32,760 nucleotides of DNA from assembly GCA_016868395.1 (NCBI GenBank), contig VGGW01000007.1, forward strand, positions 1 to 32,760. Direction: 5' to 3'. Shown in pieces: positions 4,446 to 32,073 of this stretch. The number at the start of each line of letters is the position of its first letter. The stretch's first letter is position 1. The notes beneath the pieces are model-generated. The model saw only the letters and a list, made by a program, of their open reading frames with translations, did not search any database and was not told where the DNA came from. Origin of the DNA: Bacteroidota bacterium. GTDB lineage: Bacteria > Bacteroidota > Bacteroidia > Sphingobacteriales > Sphingobacteriaceae. The position numbers and the translations under genes are program-made.

Positions 4446-4536
4446 AATTAATAGTTATAAGTAATAAGTTATAAGTTATAAGTCTCCGACTCTCAACTTG
4501 TAACTTAAGACTTAAAACTTACAACTTCAATAAAAT
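4446..4536 (+). repeat. AT-rich inverted repeat in the rpmJ-rpsM spacer
   Basis: The spacer is built from near-repeats of AAGTTATAAGTT on the left and AACTTACAACTT on the right. The arm at 4466-4484 matches the reverse complement of 4509-4527 in 17 of 19 positions. A transcript could form a long, weak hairpin just before rpsM. Such low-complexity self-complementary spacers resemble those I recall from other Bacteroidota genomes; the role is not known. Confidence 0.6.
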
Positions 4537-8232: not shown

Positions 8233-8680
8233 CCTGAGTTCGATATATGAAAGACAAAGAAATACCCATATCATGGTTCTCAAGGCGCTCCAAATGGGTA
8301 TGATTTGATTTTGGAAAGCAATACCTGCGTGTTATCGCTTCCTTTAGTCCTTTCCTCCGGAGTATTTCCGGCAAGAAATGCTACCTGATTTCAGATGATC
8401 GGTAGCCGGAAGATACCTCCTTCGGCAAGGTTTAGTTTACCCGCTGCTGTTTTTCATTGGGAGGGGCAGTCCGCTAATAGAACCCCAGGCCCTGTGAAAC
8501 AAACCCGGGTGGCAGCTCTATCTTTTTTGCCTAACTGAATGTTAGGTGAGCGATTCAACTTTCGGCAAAAAAATAGGGCAGAACAGGGGACCAGAATAAG
8601 CCGGGAGCAACAGACCCTGCTTTCCAAAAACGGATAAAAATAATCAGCCTCCGGCAAGAGGTACTATCGATCTCAGGTTA
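8233..8680. repeat. Palindromic dispersed element, long copy
   Basis: CCTGAGTTCGATA at 8233-8245 is matched in reverse complement by TATCGATCTCAGG at 8665-8677 (12 of 13). Nested inside are a perfect 12-bp inverted repeat (TTTTGGAAAGCA at 8309-8320, TGCTTTCCAAAA at 8618-8629), a core pair (8518-8531 with 8564-8576), and an apical hairpin CCTAAC-TGAAT-GTTAGG (8530-8546). The whole unit of about 450 bp is therefore a large imperfect palindrome, like a MITE or a structured RNA gene. Bases 8300-8451 recur at 27628-27779 with 15 differences and no gap. A 67-codon antisense frame inside is not supported as a gene. The rest of 8079-9040 holds no gene. Confidence 0.75.
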
Positions 8681-17471: not shown

Positions 17472-17616
17472 CACAATACCCAGGCCTTGCGCATGTCCCC
17501 CTTTGGAGGGGCTAGGGGGAGGATTAGTGCATGAGGTCTTTCGGCTGGTCGGTGACAACACCGACCATAGGGAAGGCTGGTTCAAAGTCTGTGATTTTTC
17601 TAAAACCACAATCCAT
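17472..17616 (-). repeat. Palindromic intergenic element, short copy (inverted relative to 31.9 kb)
   Basis: Read on the - strand, this matches 31869-32073 in order: GTGGTTTTAGAAAAAT, GACTTTGAACCAGCCTT, CTATGGTCGGTGTTGTCACC, GACCAGCCGAAAGACCTCA, CCTCCCCCTA, then CCAAAG and ACATGCGCAAGGCC. Its centre is the perfect 8-bp-stem palindrome at 17547-17566. It lies between the start of the S9 peptidase gene and the end of the M42 peptidase gene. The copy at 31.9 kb has about 60 extra bases. Confidence 0.8.
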
Positions 17617-22762: not shown

Positions 22763-22820
22763 CTTTTTGGTCTGATTCCTGATTGATAATCCTTCGGGTT
22801 TTCAGCATCAGTTCCATAGC

Positions 22821-22906
22821 TAGTTCAATTTCTTTTCCATCTTTTAAAGGATGATATTTAAACTAGTTGAATTTCTTTTCGATCTTTTAAAAGATCGGAT
22901 TTAAAC
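22821..22906 (+). repeat. Two tandem 43-bp copies, each with a palindrome
   Basis: Copies at 22821-22863 and 22864-22906 both run TAGTT-x-AATTTCTTTT ... TTTAAAC. The second holds a perfect 16-bp palindrome GATCTTTTAAAAGATC. The first has CATCTTTTAAAGGATG, which keeps pairing through a compensating C-G and a G-T pair. They lie 76-162 bases before the SulP gene, a fitting place for an operator or leader structure. Confidence 0.65.
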
Positions 22907-22982
22907 TTGAACAAGGTGACATTTCATAATGGATAGGGAAAAGGGTTAAATACCTTTATTTTTCTTCCTTTAAAATAAATTT

Positions 22983-24599
22983 ATGAACAATCTACAAAGT
23001 AATACTGCCTTCTTAGATTTTGGCCAATACTTTTCAAAAGCAAATTTATCAAGGGATTTACCCTCCAGTATTGTGGTATTTTTGGTGGCCTTGCCCCTCT
23101 GTTTGGGCATTGCTTTAGCATCCGGTGCGCCTTTGTTTGCCGGAGTACTAACCGGAATTGTTGGTGGAATTGTAGTGTCGGTAGTCAGCGGATCTCAATT
23201 GAGTGTAAGCGGGCCTGCTGCAGGCTTAACCGTAATCGTTTTTGGAGCAATTGCCTCCTTAGGTTCCTACCAGACTTTCTTGCTTGCCGTAGTTATTGCC
23301 GGAGTCATCCAGATTTTTCTGGGAATTTTAAAAGCGGGAATTATTGCAAACTATTTTCCTTCATCTGTTATAGAAGGAATACTTGCAGCCATTGGCATAA
23401 TATTGATTCTGAAGCAATTACCTCATGCCCTGGGAATAGATTCTGATTTTGAGGGGGATGAAAGTTTTTTTCAGGCAGATCATGAAAATACATTCACCGC
23501 CATTTATGGGGCAGTTAACAAACTTTCATACGGTGCAGTAATCATCAGTGTAGTTTCCTTGTTGATCATGATCTTCTGGCCTAAGATAAAAAGACTCTCA
23601 GCGATACCTGCCCCGGTAATCGTGGTGGTTCTGGGTATCGTTATGGGTGTTTTATTTCAAAATACGGGCATCGCATTAAGTTCCAAACAGTTGGTGACAA
23701 TCCCCATTGTAAGCTCCTTTGAACAATTTATAGGCTTGTTTTCATACCCGGATTTTAGTCAGGTAACGAATCAGCAAGTTTGGACGGTAGCGATTACCTT
23801 GGCAGTTGTAGCGAGCATTGAAACTCTTTTGAGTATTGAGGCGGTTGATAAAATAGATCCGCTGAAAAGAATTTCACCAACCAACAGGGAGCTTGTTGCT
23901 CAGGGTTTCGGAAATATAGCAAGTGGCATGTTAGGAGGAATGCCCATGACTTCAGTTATTGTAAGATCTTCCCTGAATGTAAATTCAGGAGGAAAAACAA
24001 AGATGTCGGCAATTTTTCATGGATTTTGGCTTTTATTATCCTTGCTTTTTATTCCGATGATCCTGAATAAAATTCCTTTGGCTTGTCTTGCGGCCATCCT
24101 TCTGATCACCGGGTACAAGCTCGCTAAAATCGATTTATTCAAGAAAATGTATCAGAGTGGTAAAGATCAGTTTATCCCCTTTTTGGTGACCGTGTTGGCT
24201 ATCGTCTTTACCGACTTATTAAAAGGTGTAGCCATCGGAATGCTGGTTGGTATTTTCTATATTTTGAAAACCAATCTTCGAAATCCTTATTTTTACAAAT
24301 TTGAGCAAAGTGACGGCAAAGATATGATCCGGATTAAACTGGCACAGGAAGTATCCTTTTTAAACAAAGCAGCCATTCAATATACCTTGAAAAATCTTCC
24401 TGAAGGCTCACATGTTATTATTGATGGTACAGAATCCATGTTTATAGACCGGGATGTACTTGAAATAATTCACAACTTTAAACATCATGCCTTTTCTAAA
24501 GGAACTGTAGTAGAAATTTTAAATGTGAAAAAGCAGTACTATATCCCAAATCTTAATGAATTAATTTATAATCCAATAAAAAATAAAGAACATGCCTAA
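22983..24599 (+). CDS. SulP family inorganic anion transporter (probable bicarbonate uptake)
   Basis: This is a 538-residue inner-membrane transporter. The N-terminal segment DLPSSIVVFLVALPLCLGIALASGAPL (about 20-46) is the SulP signature region, followed by GIVGGIVVSVVSGSQLSVSGPAAG, and about 10-12 further hydrophobic helices run to about residue 430. Residues about 440-530 form a reduced STAS-like cytoplasmic domain (VIIDGTESMFIDRDVLEII). Because its stop overlaps the start of a beta-carbonic anhydrase gene by eight bases (ATGCCTAA), bicarbonate is the likely substrate; SulP proteins fused to carbonic anhydrases are known. Sulfate or other anions cannot be excluded. Tandem palindromes stand upstream. 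Confidence 0.93.
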   Translation: MNNLQSNTAFLDFGQYFSKANLSRDLPSSIVVFLVALPLCLGIALASGAPLFAGVLTGIVGGIVVSVVSGSQLSVSGPAAGLTVIVFGAIASLGSYQTFLLAVVIAGVIQIFLGILKAGIIANYFPSSVIEGILAAIGIILILKQLPHALGIDSDFEGDESFFQADHENTFTAIYGAVNKLSYGAVIISVVSLLIMIFWPKIKRLSAIPAPVIVVVLGIVMGVLFQNTGIALSSKQLVTIPIVSSFEQFIGLFSYPDFSQVTNQQVWTVAITLAVVASIETLLSIEAVDKIDPLKRISPTNRELVAQGFGNIASGMLGGMPMTSVIVRSSLNVNSGGKTKMSAIFHGFWLLLSLLFIPMILNKIPLACLAAILLITGYKLAKIDLFKKMYQSGKDQFIPFLVTVLAIVFTDLLKGVAIGMLVGIFYILKTNLRNPYFYKFEQSDGKDMIRIKLAQEVSFLNKAAIQYTLKNLPEGSHVIIDGTESMFIDRDVLEIIHNFKHHAFSKGTVVEILNVKKQYYIPNLNELIYNPIKNKEHA

Positions 24600-25299
24600 A
24601 GAAAATAGAAATAAGAATGCTACTCAATTGCCCGAAGTTAAATCAGAAAAGCAAAAGCGGACCTACCAAGATCTGTTAAAAGGCAATAGAAATTGGGTAA
24701 AAGCCGAAACGGAAAAGGATCCCAGTTTCTTTGATAAGTTAGCCGCCGGTCAGGAGCCGGACGTTCTTTGGATCGGTTGCTCTGACAGTCGGGTGCCTGC
24801 AAATGAGGTGACCAATACTCGTCCGGGGCAAGTATTTGTTCACCGGAACATTGCCAACGTGTGCTTACATTCAGATATGAATATACTTAGTGTGCTCGAT
24901 TATGCGGTAAACGTATTGAAGGTAAAGCATGTTATTGTTTCAGGACACTATGGTTGCGGTGGGGTTGCTGCCGCGCTTAGTAATCAGCAATTTGGCCTTA
25001 TCGATAATTGGCTCAGGCATATTAAGGATGTTTATCGTTTGCATAGCCATGAACTCGACCGAATTACAGATCATCAAAGCAAATTGAATCGCCTGGTTGA
25101 ACTGAATGTGGTAGAACAGGTATACAATTTATGTAAAACCACCATCGTTCAAAATGCCTGGAGAGAACGTGATGATTTGGAATTACATGGCTGGGTTATT
25201 GATTTGAAAACCGGTCTCGTAAAAGACTTAAAGGTAACTACCAAATCAACTGAGAATGTTGGTAAGGTGTTTAAACTAGATGAATCGAAGTTAAAATAG
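24592..25299 (+). CDS. Beta-class carbonic anhydrase
   Basis: This enzyme interconverts CO2 and bicarbonate. The 235-residue product has the zinc ligands C63, H119 and C122 and the catalytic D65-R67 dyad in CSDSRVPANE and SGHYGCGG. NWLRHIKDVYRLH and VEQVYNL also belong to the beta-class fold. A charged N-terminus without a signal peptide indicates a cytosolic enzyme. The start codon overlaps the SulP stop by eight bases, so the two are translationally coupled and should act together: import of bicarbonate and its equilibration for carboxylases and pH control. A tandem-repeat array begins 14 bases after the stop. Confidence 0.96.
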   Translation: MPKENRNKNATQLPEVKSEKQKRTYQDLLKGNRNWVKAETEKDPSFFDKLAAGQEPDVLWIGCSDSRVPANEVTNTRPGQVFVHRNIANVCLHSDMNILSVLDYAVNVLKVKHVIVSGHYGCGGVAAALSNQQFGLIDNWLRHIKDVYRLHSHELDRITDHQSKLNRLVELNVVEQVYNLCKTTIVQNAWRERDDLELHGWVIDLKTGLVKDLKVTTKSTENVGKVFKLDESKLK

Positions 25300-25312
25300 A
25301 ATACAGACCACT

Positions 25313-25866
25313 CCCCCCAGTGGTCGGTGTGGTCACCGTAGCCCTGTTGTTGGTGTTGTCACCGTACCCCTGTGGTCGGTGTTATCACCATAGCCCTGTG
25401 ATCGGTGTTGTCACCGTAGCCCTGTGGTCGGTGTTGTCACCATAACCCTGTGATCGGGGTGGTCACCATAGCCCTGTGGTCGGTGTGGTCACCATACCCC
25501 TGTGGTCGGTGTTGTCACCATACCCCAGTGGTCGGTGTTGTCACCATACCCCTGTGGTCGGTGTTGTCACCATACCCCTGTGGTCGGTGTTATCACCATA
25601 GCCCTGTGATCGGTGTGGTCACCATAGCCCTGTGATCGGTATTGTCACCGTACCCCTGTGGTCGGTGTTGTCACCGTACCCCTGTGGTCGGTGTTGTCAC
25701 CGTACTACTACCCCCTGTGATCGGTATTGTCACCGTACCCCTGTGGTCGGTGTTGTCACCGTACCCCTGTGGTCGGTGTTGTCACCGTACTACTACCCCC
25801 TGTGATCGGTATTGTCACCGTACCACTACCCCCTGTGATCGGTTTTATCACCGTACCACTCCTCAA
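25313..25866. repeat. 26-bp tandem repeat array, about 20 units
   Basis: Direct head-to-tail units of 26 bases have GGTCGGTGTTGTCACCGTAC as the core; a few are lengthened to about 32-33 bases by an extra CTACTACC-like piece. Each unit can fold into GGTG-loop-CACC, and GTACC-ending units extend this to 8 bp with one bulged T. Fifteen of 20 units keep the GGTG/CACC stem while loop bases vary (TTGT, TGGT, TTAT). There are no spacers of independent sequence, so this is not a CRISPR array. Frames across it are artefacts of a 26-base period. It fills the space between two convergent genes. Confidence 0.95.
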
Positions 25867-25883: not shown

Positions 25884-27518
25884 TTATTCTTTATCCAAAA
25901 ATGGATAACGATAATCTTTAGGAGGGTCAAAGCTTTCTTTAATCGTTCTTGGAGATACCCATCGTAATAAATTAATCATGGATCCGGCTTTATCATTCGT
26001 CCCCGATCCTCTGGCACCTCCAAATGGCTGCTGCCCTACCACTGCGCCTGTACACTTATCGTTGATATAAAAATTACCTGCTGCATTTTTCAAGGCATGT
26101 GTGGCCTCAGTCAGAACATAACGATCTTGTGCAAAAACCGCCCCGGTCAAGGCATAATTGGAAGTTTGATCGATGATTTTAAGTGTTTTTTCAAATTCGC
26201 TGTCTTCAAAAATGTAGATGGTAAGAATGGGTCCGAATAACTCTTCACACATCGTGACATAAAATGGATCTTTTGTCAACAAGATGGTGGGCTCAATGAA
26301 ATAGCCCTTGGTTTTGTCATAATTACCTCCGGCAATAATTTCCAGATCATTATCATTTTTTGCCCTTTCAATATAGGCGACCAGTTTATCGAATGATTTT
26401 TCATCAATGACTGCATTGATAAAGTTACCGAAATCTTCGGTCGGACCCATTTTCAGGCTAGCCAGATCCCGCATTAAAATCGAATTTATTTGAGGCCATA
26501 CGGAAGCCGCAATGTATACCCTTGAGGCTGCAGAGCATTTCTGACCCTGATATTCAAAGGCAGCTCGCAGGATAGCCGTGGCGGAGGCCTCCACATCCGC
26601 CGAACCATGCACCAGAATAAAATCTTTTCCGCCGGTTTCTCCTACAATTCTGGGGTAAGATCTGTACAAGTGAATGTGATTGCCGATTGTTTTCCAAATA
26701 TCTTGAAATACCGCTGTCGATCCGGTAAAATGAATACCTGCAAAGTCAGGGTGATTAAATATGACTTCTGCTGCAATCGGTCCCGGAACATAAACCAGGT
26801 TGATGACCCCCTCAGGTAAACCCGCTTCCTTGAAAATCTGCATCAATACATTGGCAGAATAAATCTGAGTGTTGGCCGGCTTCCAAACCACCACATTGCC
26901 CATCATAGCTGCAGAAGTAGGCAGATTTCCTGCAATGGCCGTGAAGTTAAAGGGAGTCAGGGCAAAAACAAATCCTTCAAGCGGCCTTTGTTCCACACGA
27001 TTCCAGCTACCTTTGGGCGATACAGGCGGCTGCTGTGCATAAATTTCACACATATAGCTGACGTTGAACCGCAAGAAATCAATGAGCTCACAAGCTGCAT
27101 CAATCTCTGCCTGATAGGCATTTTTTGATTGACCTAACATAGTGGCCGCATTCAGTTTATAACGATAAGGCCCTGCAATCAGGTCGGCAGCCTTTAAAAA
27201 AATGGCTGCACGTTGTTCCCATGGTAAATTTTCCCAGGCCGATTTAGCCTTTAAAGCAGTATTAATGGCCATACCAACATGTTCATGACTTCCTTCATGA
27301 TATTTCCCAAGCAAGTGCTGATGATCATGAGGAGGAAAAATATTAACCTGTTTTTGAGTTCTGACTTCTTCAGCGCCAATATACATTGGAATGTCAATCA
27401 CCCTTGAGCGAGCCGCTTCAATAGCCTCTTGTAATAATTTTCGTTCTTTAGATCCCGGTGCATAATTCAAAACCTGCTCATTCACCGGATCAGGAACATT
27501 GAAAAATCCTTTAAGCAT
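25884..27518 (-). CDS. pruA: L-glutamate gamma-semialdehyde dehydrogenase (1-pyrroline-5-carboxylate dehydrogenase)
   Basis: This is the second enzyme of proline catabolism, oxidising glutamate semialdehyde to glutamate with NAD+. The 544-residue aldehyde dehydrogenase has the catalytic Cys at 328 (FEYQGQKCSAAS), the general-base Glu at 294 (GETGGKDF), the cofactor-binding VVWKPANTQ near 210-218, and the TPFNFTAIAGNLP segment near 188-200. The opening GFFNVPDPVNEQVLNYAPGS and the length match the stand-alone P5CDH type rather than the bifunctional PutA. The 3' end lies 17 bases from the tandem array. Upstream are the short dispersed element and small array. The proline dehydrogenase gene is not in the window. 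Confidence 0.96.
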   Translation of the reverse strand: MLKGFFNVPDPVNEQVLNYAPGSKERKLLQEAIEAARSRVIDIPMYIGAEEVRTQKQVNIFPPHDHQHLLGKYHEGSHEHVGMAINTALKAKSAWENLPWEQRAAIFLKAADLIAGPYRYKLNAATMLGQSKNAYQAEIDAACELIDFLRFNVSYMCEIYAQQPPVSPKGSWNRVEQRPLEGFVFALTPFNFTAIAGNLPTSAAMMGNVVVWKPANTQIYSANVLMQIFKEAGLPEGVINLVYVPGPIAAEVIFNHPDFAGIHFTGSTAVFQDIWKTIGNHIHLYRSYPRIVGETGGKDFILVHGSADVEASATAILRAAFEYQGQKCSAASRVYIAASVWPQINSILMRDLASLKMGPTEDFGNFINAVIDEKSFDKLVAYIERAKNDNDLEIIAGGNYDKTKGYFIEPTILLTKDPFYVTMCEELFGPILTIYIFEDSEFEKTLKIIDQTSNYALTGAVFAQDRYVLTEATHALKNAAGNFYINDKCTGAVVGQQPFGGARGSGTNDKAGSMINLLRWVSPRTIKESFDPPKDYRYPFLDKE

Positions 27519-27557: not shown

Positions 27558-27779
27558 TAACCTGAGATTGATATAAGAAAGATAAAAAAATGTCATTTTA
27601 ATTGATTTCAAGATTCTGCGGACTCATATGATTTGATTTTGGAAACCAATACCTGCGTTTTATAGCTCATTTCAGCCCTTTCCTCCGGGGTATTTCCGGC
27701 AAGAAATGCTACCTGATATCAGATAATCCCTAGCCGGAAGATACCTCCTTCGGCAAGGTTTAGTATACCCGATGCTGTT
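27558..27779 (+). repeat. Palindromic dispersed element, truncated copy
   Basis: The end motif (TTAACCTGAGATTGATATAAG-like at 27558-27576) is followed by a segment at 27628-27779 that equals 8300-8451 over 152 bases with 15 differences and no gap by hand count. Similarity stops abruptly after GCTGTT, where 26-bp-type repeat units begin. The right half and right terminal inverted repeat of the 8.2-kb copy are missing. It lies in the 476-base gap between divergent pruA and lpxK. Confidence 0.8.
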
Positions 27780-27892
27780 CCCCTGTGGTCGTCCCCTGTG
27801 GTCGTCCCCTGTGGTCGGTGTTGTCACCGTACCCCTGTGGTCGGTGTTGTCACCGTACCACTTCCCCTAGAGTCAGTGTTGTCACCCTACCA
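27780..27892. repeat. Small second array of 26-bp-type units
   Basis: Two short 13-base partial units (CCCCTGTGGTCGT twice) are followed by two full units identical in core to the large array (GGTCGGTGTTGTCACCGTAC) and a degenerate unit (AGTCAGTGTTGTCACCCTAC). It starts exactly where the truncated dispersed element ends. Confidence 0.9.
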
Positions 27893-27975
27893 CGCACTCA
27901 ATCCCCAAATCAATCTTTCATCAGAAATTTCTTATGCTTGATTCTGATACCATGACTAGCTTCCAATCAATTATG

Positions 27976-31868: not shown

Positions 31869-32073
31869 AATAGGGTTGTGGTTTTAGAAAAATTATAGAC
31901 TTTGAACCAGCCTTTTGTCCCCCTTTGGAGGGGGACGCGCAGGACCAGAGCGCCGGCAGGGGGAGGATTCCCCCCTATGGTCGGTGTTGTCACCGACCAG
32001 CCGAAAGACCTCAAACACCCATCCTCCCCCTACCCTCTCCAAAGGAGGACATGCACAAGGCCCTGGAATCGTG
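31869..32073 (+). repeat. Palindromic intergenic element, long copy with 60-bp insertion
   Basis: This is an inverted copy of the repeat at 17472-17616. The 20-base centre GGTCGGTGTTGTCACCGACC is at 31979-31998. About 60 bases at 31915-31974 are absent from the other copy. The insert begins with its own hairpin (GTCCCCCT-TTGG-AGGGGGAC) and continues to GGGGGAGGATT, which mirrors the right-hand arm (ATCCTCCCCC ... CTCCAAAGGAGGACATG). The element is therefore an arm-centre-arm palindrome here. It fills most of the 444-base gap between the porin and aconitase genes; the remainder (32074-32290) shows no gene. Confidence 0.82.

Follow-up and report, generated by a model that had tools for sequence, protein, structure and literature searches.

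Between the convergent genes for a carbonic anhydrase and a dehydrogenase, the stretch of DNA analysed here, probably from a Daejeonella (Sphingobacteriaceae) MAG (the window: 32,760 nt, GenBank VGGW01000007.1, positions 1 to 32,760) carries a stack of short hairpin-forming repeats. What this stack is, and whether it serves the genes on either side, is the question it raises. Reading the window unit by unit gives 20 hairpin units of 26 or 33 bp, with 16 junctions of 26 bp and three of 33 bp; the count is read from a fragmented MAG of 320 contigs, in which the identical 85-bp blocks of the array may have been miscounted. It agrees with a preliminary description of about 20 head-to-tail units between two convergent genes. 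These are the Pro_CA gene (+) and the P5CDH-like gene (-). TRF reports a period of 26 with 18 copies at 25315-25790, followed by the 33-bp continuation up to ~25860, and the final unit terminates in a complete right arm, ...GTACCAC. The identical 85-bp blocks are a sign of recent local duplication or growth. The 21-base consensus CCTGTGGTCGGTGTTGTCACC, allowing up to three mismatches, has 24 sites in the window (0.00 expected from shuffles), and Rfam gives nothing above gathering score anywhere in it. A coding repeat was rejected for the array, a 26-bp period not being divisible by three.

Table 1. Repeats of the window and the genes flanking the array.
Feature	Position	Strand	Remarks
Pro_CA, beta carbonic anhydrase (PF00484)	24592..25299	+	3' end 15 bp before array; overlaps SulP transporter
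Tandem REP array	25315..25862	+	consensus CCCCTGTGGTCGGTGTTGTCACC(G/A)TA, 20 units; final unit with complete right arm ACCAC
Higher-order 85-bp repeat in array	25628..25824	+	2.3 copies, 100% matches (TRF)
Aldehyde dehydrogenase family, most like P5C dehydrogenase (PF00171)	25884..27518	-	convergent flanking gene
Second REP cluster	27779..27894	+	upstream of P5CDH-like gene; two 26-bp units and a single diverged one, besides 13-bp copies of the left arm only
Solitary REP	17545..17572 (consensus match at 17551)	-	perfect outer stem GGTCGGTG-TTGT-CACCGACC
Solitary REP	31973..32000 (consensus match at 31979)	+	perfect outer stem GGTCGGTG-TTGT-CACCGACC

The preliminary description held that the GGTG and CACC arms are kept in 15 of 20 units, and our recount finds both intact in exactly 15. 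It also held that changes concentrate in the loop, which the counts do not bear out: 7 of 80 loop positions are changed, against 5 of 160 arm positions (Fisher p=0.11, not significant). Several further columns are as invariant as those of the arms. Since loop changes are not significantly denser and no compensated arm change was seen among the 20 units, the array by itself gives no sign of selection for the stem. These arms are just the inner portion of a longer hairpin. The 26-bp units lack its outer right arm, so that a single unit folds only as a 5-bp stem (-5.3 kcal/mol, DNA), and the complete element forms a 10-bp stem of about -10 kcal/mol (DNA folding).

The preliminary description asked whether the unit occurs beyond this locus, and whether it then falls between convergent genes. 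The first holds. The window has three further hairpin clusters (Table 1), and the whole genome, by pattern searches, has about a dozen (contigs C5, C7, C46, C87, C91, C141, C155, C170 and C245). The second does not: by simple ORF calls, the 11 scorable clusters comprise six between co-directional genes, four between divergent genes and just one between convergent genes; none lies inside a gene. The pattern GGTCGGTGTTGTCACC, with up to one mismatch, was found in 16 of 60 relatives' genomes, all of the same family, at up to 62 copies, several congeners having 20-62; the reversed control pattern gave almost no matches in these 60. The hairpin is thus a short (20-40 bp), dispersed, extragenic palindrome present in many copies, which is what is meant by a REP element. 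Phage and plasmid origins were considered for the repeat and dropped, with no exact match in viral contigs and none in plasmids.

At full length, the element forms an imperfect stem of 9-11 bp and has the core GGTGTTNTCACC. In relatives the unit extends past the inner arms, as TCCTCTGGTcGGTG-TTGT-CACCgtACCAG, GTGGT...ACCAC or GCGGT...ACCGC. Its outer closing pair is G-C at 57 sites and C-G at 32, and two-sided changes also occur at pair 1 (T-A/C-G/A-T) and pair 4 (T-A/G-C/C-G). Around Bacteroidota RAYT genes the outer arms pair at 648 of 702 positions, where shuffles average 482 and reach at most 507; the sites were picked by the core GGTGTTNTCACC alone, which leaves the outer arms not preselected for pairing, and the shuffle leaves sequence kinship in. 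With its outer-arm pairing and two-sided changes at the outer pairs, the element is a conserved stem-loop, as a REP should be. At the hairpin stands a 5' tag, (T/C/G)CC(C)T (NCCCT/TCCT). The 5' GT[AG]G tetranucleotide, the hallmark of canonical REPs, is absent from the foot of this hairpin; REPs of subclass 2.6 (described below) likewise lack it, so that the missing tag excludes the GTAG families and not a subclass 2.6 type.

A RAYT gene of 170 aa, the sole one of the source genome, was located by reading ORFs between neighbouring repeats; it lies outside the window, between two REP clusters on another contig (C5:31661-32170). It scores 86.5 bits with NCBIfam NF047646 (REP-associated tyrosine transposase; cut-off 80), and is missed by Pfam Y1_Tnp (PF01797; 15 bits, cut-off 23). 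Its sole PDB sequence match is TnpA_REP 4ER8 (E=1.5e-6), the E. coli protein bound to a REP hairpin. For a homologue from genome G007 with 90% identity, the AlphaFold model (pLDDT 93) again has this structure as its top fold match (E=1.7e-8, probability 1.00), ranking ahead of IS608 and ISDra2 TnpA. The source protein has H53, H55 and Y129, and the HUH histidines and the tyrosine are invariant in an 18-sequence alignment; the motifs are NHMH, WE and Y[IM]HFNP in Daejeonella, NH[VIL]H and YIHNNP in relatives. As candidate transposases for the repeat, the PF01797 matches (IS200-type and other RAYT-like genes) were rejected, none being closely flanked by it at the loci checked.

The gene and the hairpin occur together. 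RAYTs of 65-91% identity were found in six other genomes (G010, G007, G019, G001, G031 and G020), the repeat is present in all six, and at all seven close loci (65-100% identity, counting the source genome) the gene stands between inverted hairpin copies. More widely, the flanking inverted-repeat match exceeds all 20 shuffles at 43 of 45 Bacteroidota RAYT loci, and the exact core is found on both strands at 45 of 80 RAYT loci. A cognate RAYT flanked by its element is the arrangement called a REPtron. Among 20 Daejeonella genomes five have a close RAYT, and all five have at least nine REP copies, as do two of the 15 without it (Fisher p=0.0014, only a guide since the species are related). The two with several copies and no close RAYT are G017 (26 copies; 87% complete) and G008 (nine copies), in which the gene may be lost or unassembled; with these exceptions REP presence is not strictly tied to a close RAYT.

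Some RAYT loci depart from the common form. The gene of G001 (L133:1501-2010) reads NNLH for NHxH, replacing the first HUH histidine with Asn, in a genome with 28 near-uniform REP copies; judged by this motif, it may have been recently inactivated. The RAYT of G030 (L139), 38% identical to the query, has a different type of hairpin on either side, TGTTGGTGTTGTCACC..., in which the core is the same and the outer arms differ. The hairpin at the flanks of more distant RAYTs (L137 and L145) is diverged, GGTCTGTGTCTTCACAGACC, which suggests that RAYT and hairpin change together.

A trace of mobility is seen in genome G007, where the spacer between the carbonic anhydrase and dehydrogenase genes holds an inverted pair of the hairpin (a REPIN) that lies within another dispersed element and directly follows GCGTT. 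In G019, G008, G011 and G017 this element has an unoccupied GCGTT site. No target duplication is evident at the G007 insertion, and none is expected of IS200/IS605-type insertion. We also noted a second dispersed element (...CCTTTCCTCCGG.GTATTTCCGGCAAGAAAT...AGCCGGAAGATACCTCCTTCGGCAAGGTTTA...) in the window at ~8250-8480 and ~27580-27785 (+) and in spacers L240, L241, L247, L248 and L249; in this element REP insertions after CTGTT or GCGTT recur.

Because inverted hairpins bracket the RAYT, the stem covaries and the predicted fold is that of 4ER8, we assign the repeat to a REP/RAYT family. Our main reading, to which we give a probability of about 0.87, is that the array repeat is a REP, a non-autonomous mobile hairpin of a Bacteroidota RAYT/TnpA_REP system, and that the array is its tandem amplification, probably a tolerated by-product. 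The preliminary idea of selection for the hairpin, or of replication based on it, fits at the level of the family, where covariation extends across species and the hairpin flanks the gene of a cognate HUH transposase; the array alone does not show such selection. The predicted RAYT, through its HUH histidines and catalytic Tyr, would recognise a single-stranded hairpin with the 5' (T/C/G)CC(C)T tag, a candidate substrate being TCCCCTGTGGTCGGTGTTGTCACCGTACCACT; it would cut near the hairpin and move REP copies between genes. Head-to-tail multimers would have arisen in this lineage and then been copied to several loci, four of which have the same 26-bp junction, and the array would have expanded in place by slippage or unequal crossing-over, a mechanism suggested by the identical 85-bp blocks. 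Most likely the array is a side product of REPs multiplying, tolerated in a 3'-3' spacer, with at most a secondary damping of read-through.

Among known systems, by host, hairpin type and size, the family appears to fit best with subclass 2.6 of the HuH/TnpA_Y1 classification, although its motifs are slightly different. That subclass is mostly from Bacteroidetes; atypical hairpins stand on the flanks of its genes, lack GT[AG]G and have copies elsewhere in the genome (PMC6006769, Quentin et al., 2018). Shared with it are the Bacteroidota host, a protein of ~170-180 aa, NHxH and YIHxNP, the non-GT[AG]G flanking hairpins and the dispersed copies. Its published motifs are NH[LIV]H, WQ and YIH[QN]NP (PMC6006769), whereas here we find NHMH, WE and YIHFNP; here, too, a hairpin consensus is given (core GGTGTTNTCACC with covarying outer arms), and copies form head-to-tail arrays. 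The E. coli TnpA_REP system with its GTAG REPs and BIMEs (4ER8; PMC8266576) resembles ours in fold (predicted here), in a RAYT bracketed by REPs, in a bulged imperfect stem and in a 5' tag by the hairpin. Our family differs in the tag, (T/C/G)CC(C)T and not GTAG, in a far lower copy number and in the lack of BIME-like inverted pairs in the source genome. For E. coli TnpA_REP, the cut sites in single-stranded REPs are CT steps that lie 5' or 3' of the hairpin (PMC8266576); the 5' tag here likewise has a CT step, which may serve as a lead to the cut site.

Tandem REPs are also known, as arrays in P. fluorescens SBW25 (PMC3116915) and as clusters in GTAG families (PMC3733652), and these have the same head-to-tail reiteration and regular spacing. 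The largest arrays described in SBW25 have 12 REPs at 72/112-bp spacing with intervening DNA (PMC3116915), whereas the present one has 20 units at 26 bp, trimmed of the 3' outer arm and without spacer DNA. The kind is therefore already known, though tandem stacks as clean as this 20-fold one are unusual in it. What is new is the family consensus, an array in which 20 REPs trimmed at the 3' side follow each other at 26 bp, and the occurrence of three organisational forms in a single genus. We found no relevant literature on Daejeonella repeats or on REPs in Sphingobacteriaceae.

The three forms are mostly singlets in G001, REPINs, that is inverted REP pairs (PMC3116915), in G007 and G017, and head-to-tail arrays in the source genome. 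Searches with the exact core gave 18 inverted pairs in G007, 13 in G017 and none in the source genome. Exact tandem pairs number 17 in the source genome and at most three in each of 300 other genomes of the family; six of the 301 have any. Four loci have the 26-bp junction, CACCGTACCCCTGTGGTC, namely two of the window and one each on C87 and C155, and 32/33-bp junctions are common to C7 and C245. Left-arm-only partial copies stand in tandem right before a complete REP, as TCCCCTGTGGTCG at 27779-27817 of the window and as TCCTCTGGTCGG in L125 near 1178, as if copying had stalled at the hairpin and then restarted.

How the tandem form arose may also be read otherwise. It is possible, at somewhat under even odds, that a single REP seeded a plain satellite, which then grew by slipped-strand replication or unequal crossing-over without a transposase; this departs from the main reading solely in the origin of the tandem form, since the seed remains a REP. 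The near identity of adjacent units, the 100% identical 85-bp blocks, the left-arm triplets TCCCCTGTGGTCG at 27779 and the short microhomology of a C-run where 26-bp units join are what such growth would leave, but the occurrence of that junction at four loci then needs either transfer of multimers or the same slippage repeated. A rather doubtful proposal is that the RAYT system itself produces and spreads head-to-tail multimers, a mode distinct from the inverted REPIN, one family taking the form of singlets, REPINs or arrays in sister species; the multimers might come from a single-strand intermediate, circular or rolling, whose joint lies at ...CACCGTA/CCCCTGTGG...

As for a function at this locus, the preliminary description saw the array as closing the carbonic anhydrase operon. 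We think it unlikely that the array has taken the place of an ordinary terminator in the spacer of the carbonic anhydrase and dehydrogenase genes and works as a functional two-way terminator or attenuator. It does begin 15 bp past the carbonic anhydrase stop, its RNA is more stably folded than shuffled sequences (z -3.05), and a scan for intrinsic terminators found a hairpin-plus-T terminator in this spacer in six congeners (G010, G004 and G015, with spacers of 63-74 bp, and G001, G012 and G013) and no canonical one in the source genome. However, G019, G008 and G011 have neither a canonical terminator here nor such an array, the hairpin of the 26-bp unit is weak and has no T-run, and the array contains no intrinsic terminator (G+C-rich hairpin with T-run) apart from one weak match on the - strand at its left edge. 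The array is absent from all 14 other Daejeonella genomes, one per species, in which the two genes adjoin. Since no orthologous spacer holds it, and since REP clusters elsewhere are mostly not 3'-3' (one of 11 convergent, four between divergent genes), there is no support for a dedicated terminator role, nor for any other locus-specific role in closing the operon. It is very improbable that the array serves as binding sites for a protein of nucleoid, segregation or gyrase type, with selection acting on the number of units. The 26-bp spacing, about 2.5 helical turns, is indeed conserved in sixteen junctions, and E. coli BIMEs are reported as gyrase targets, in a reference cited in PMC8266576; against this, the 33-bp units break the register, no congener has the array at this locus, and long arrays occur in only one species among 301. 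We thus retain the by-product of a REP/RAYT system as the best explanation of the array.

REP movement has rarely been caught, and one RAYT/REP family in three forms among sister species bears on how REPs multiply. The 26-bp junction common to four loci yields a concrete prediction for the joining reaction, and the consensus hairpin makes the poorly described non-GTRG REPs of Bacteroidetes searchable, and testable in vitro.

Two other short repeats were seen in the window. Upstream of the transporter gene there is a 43-bp dimer (22820-22907), and a tandem of the 7-bp unit AGTTATA at 4449-4483 resembles the short AGTAGTT/AAGTTAT-type tandem in the spacer of G002 (L242).
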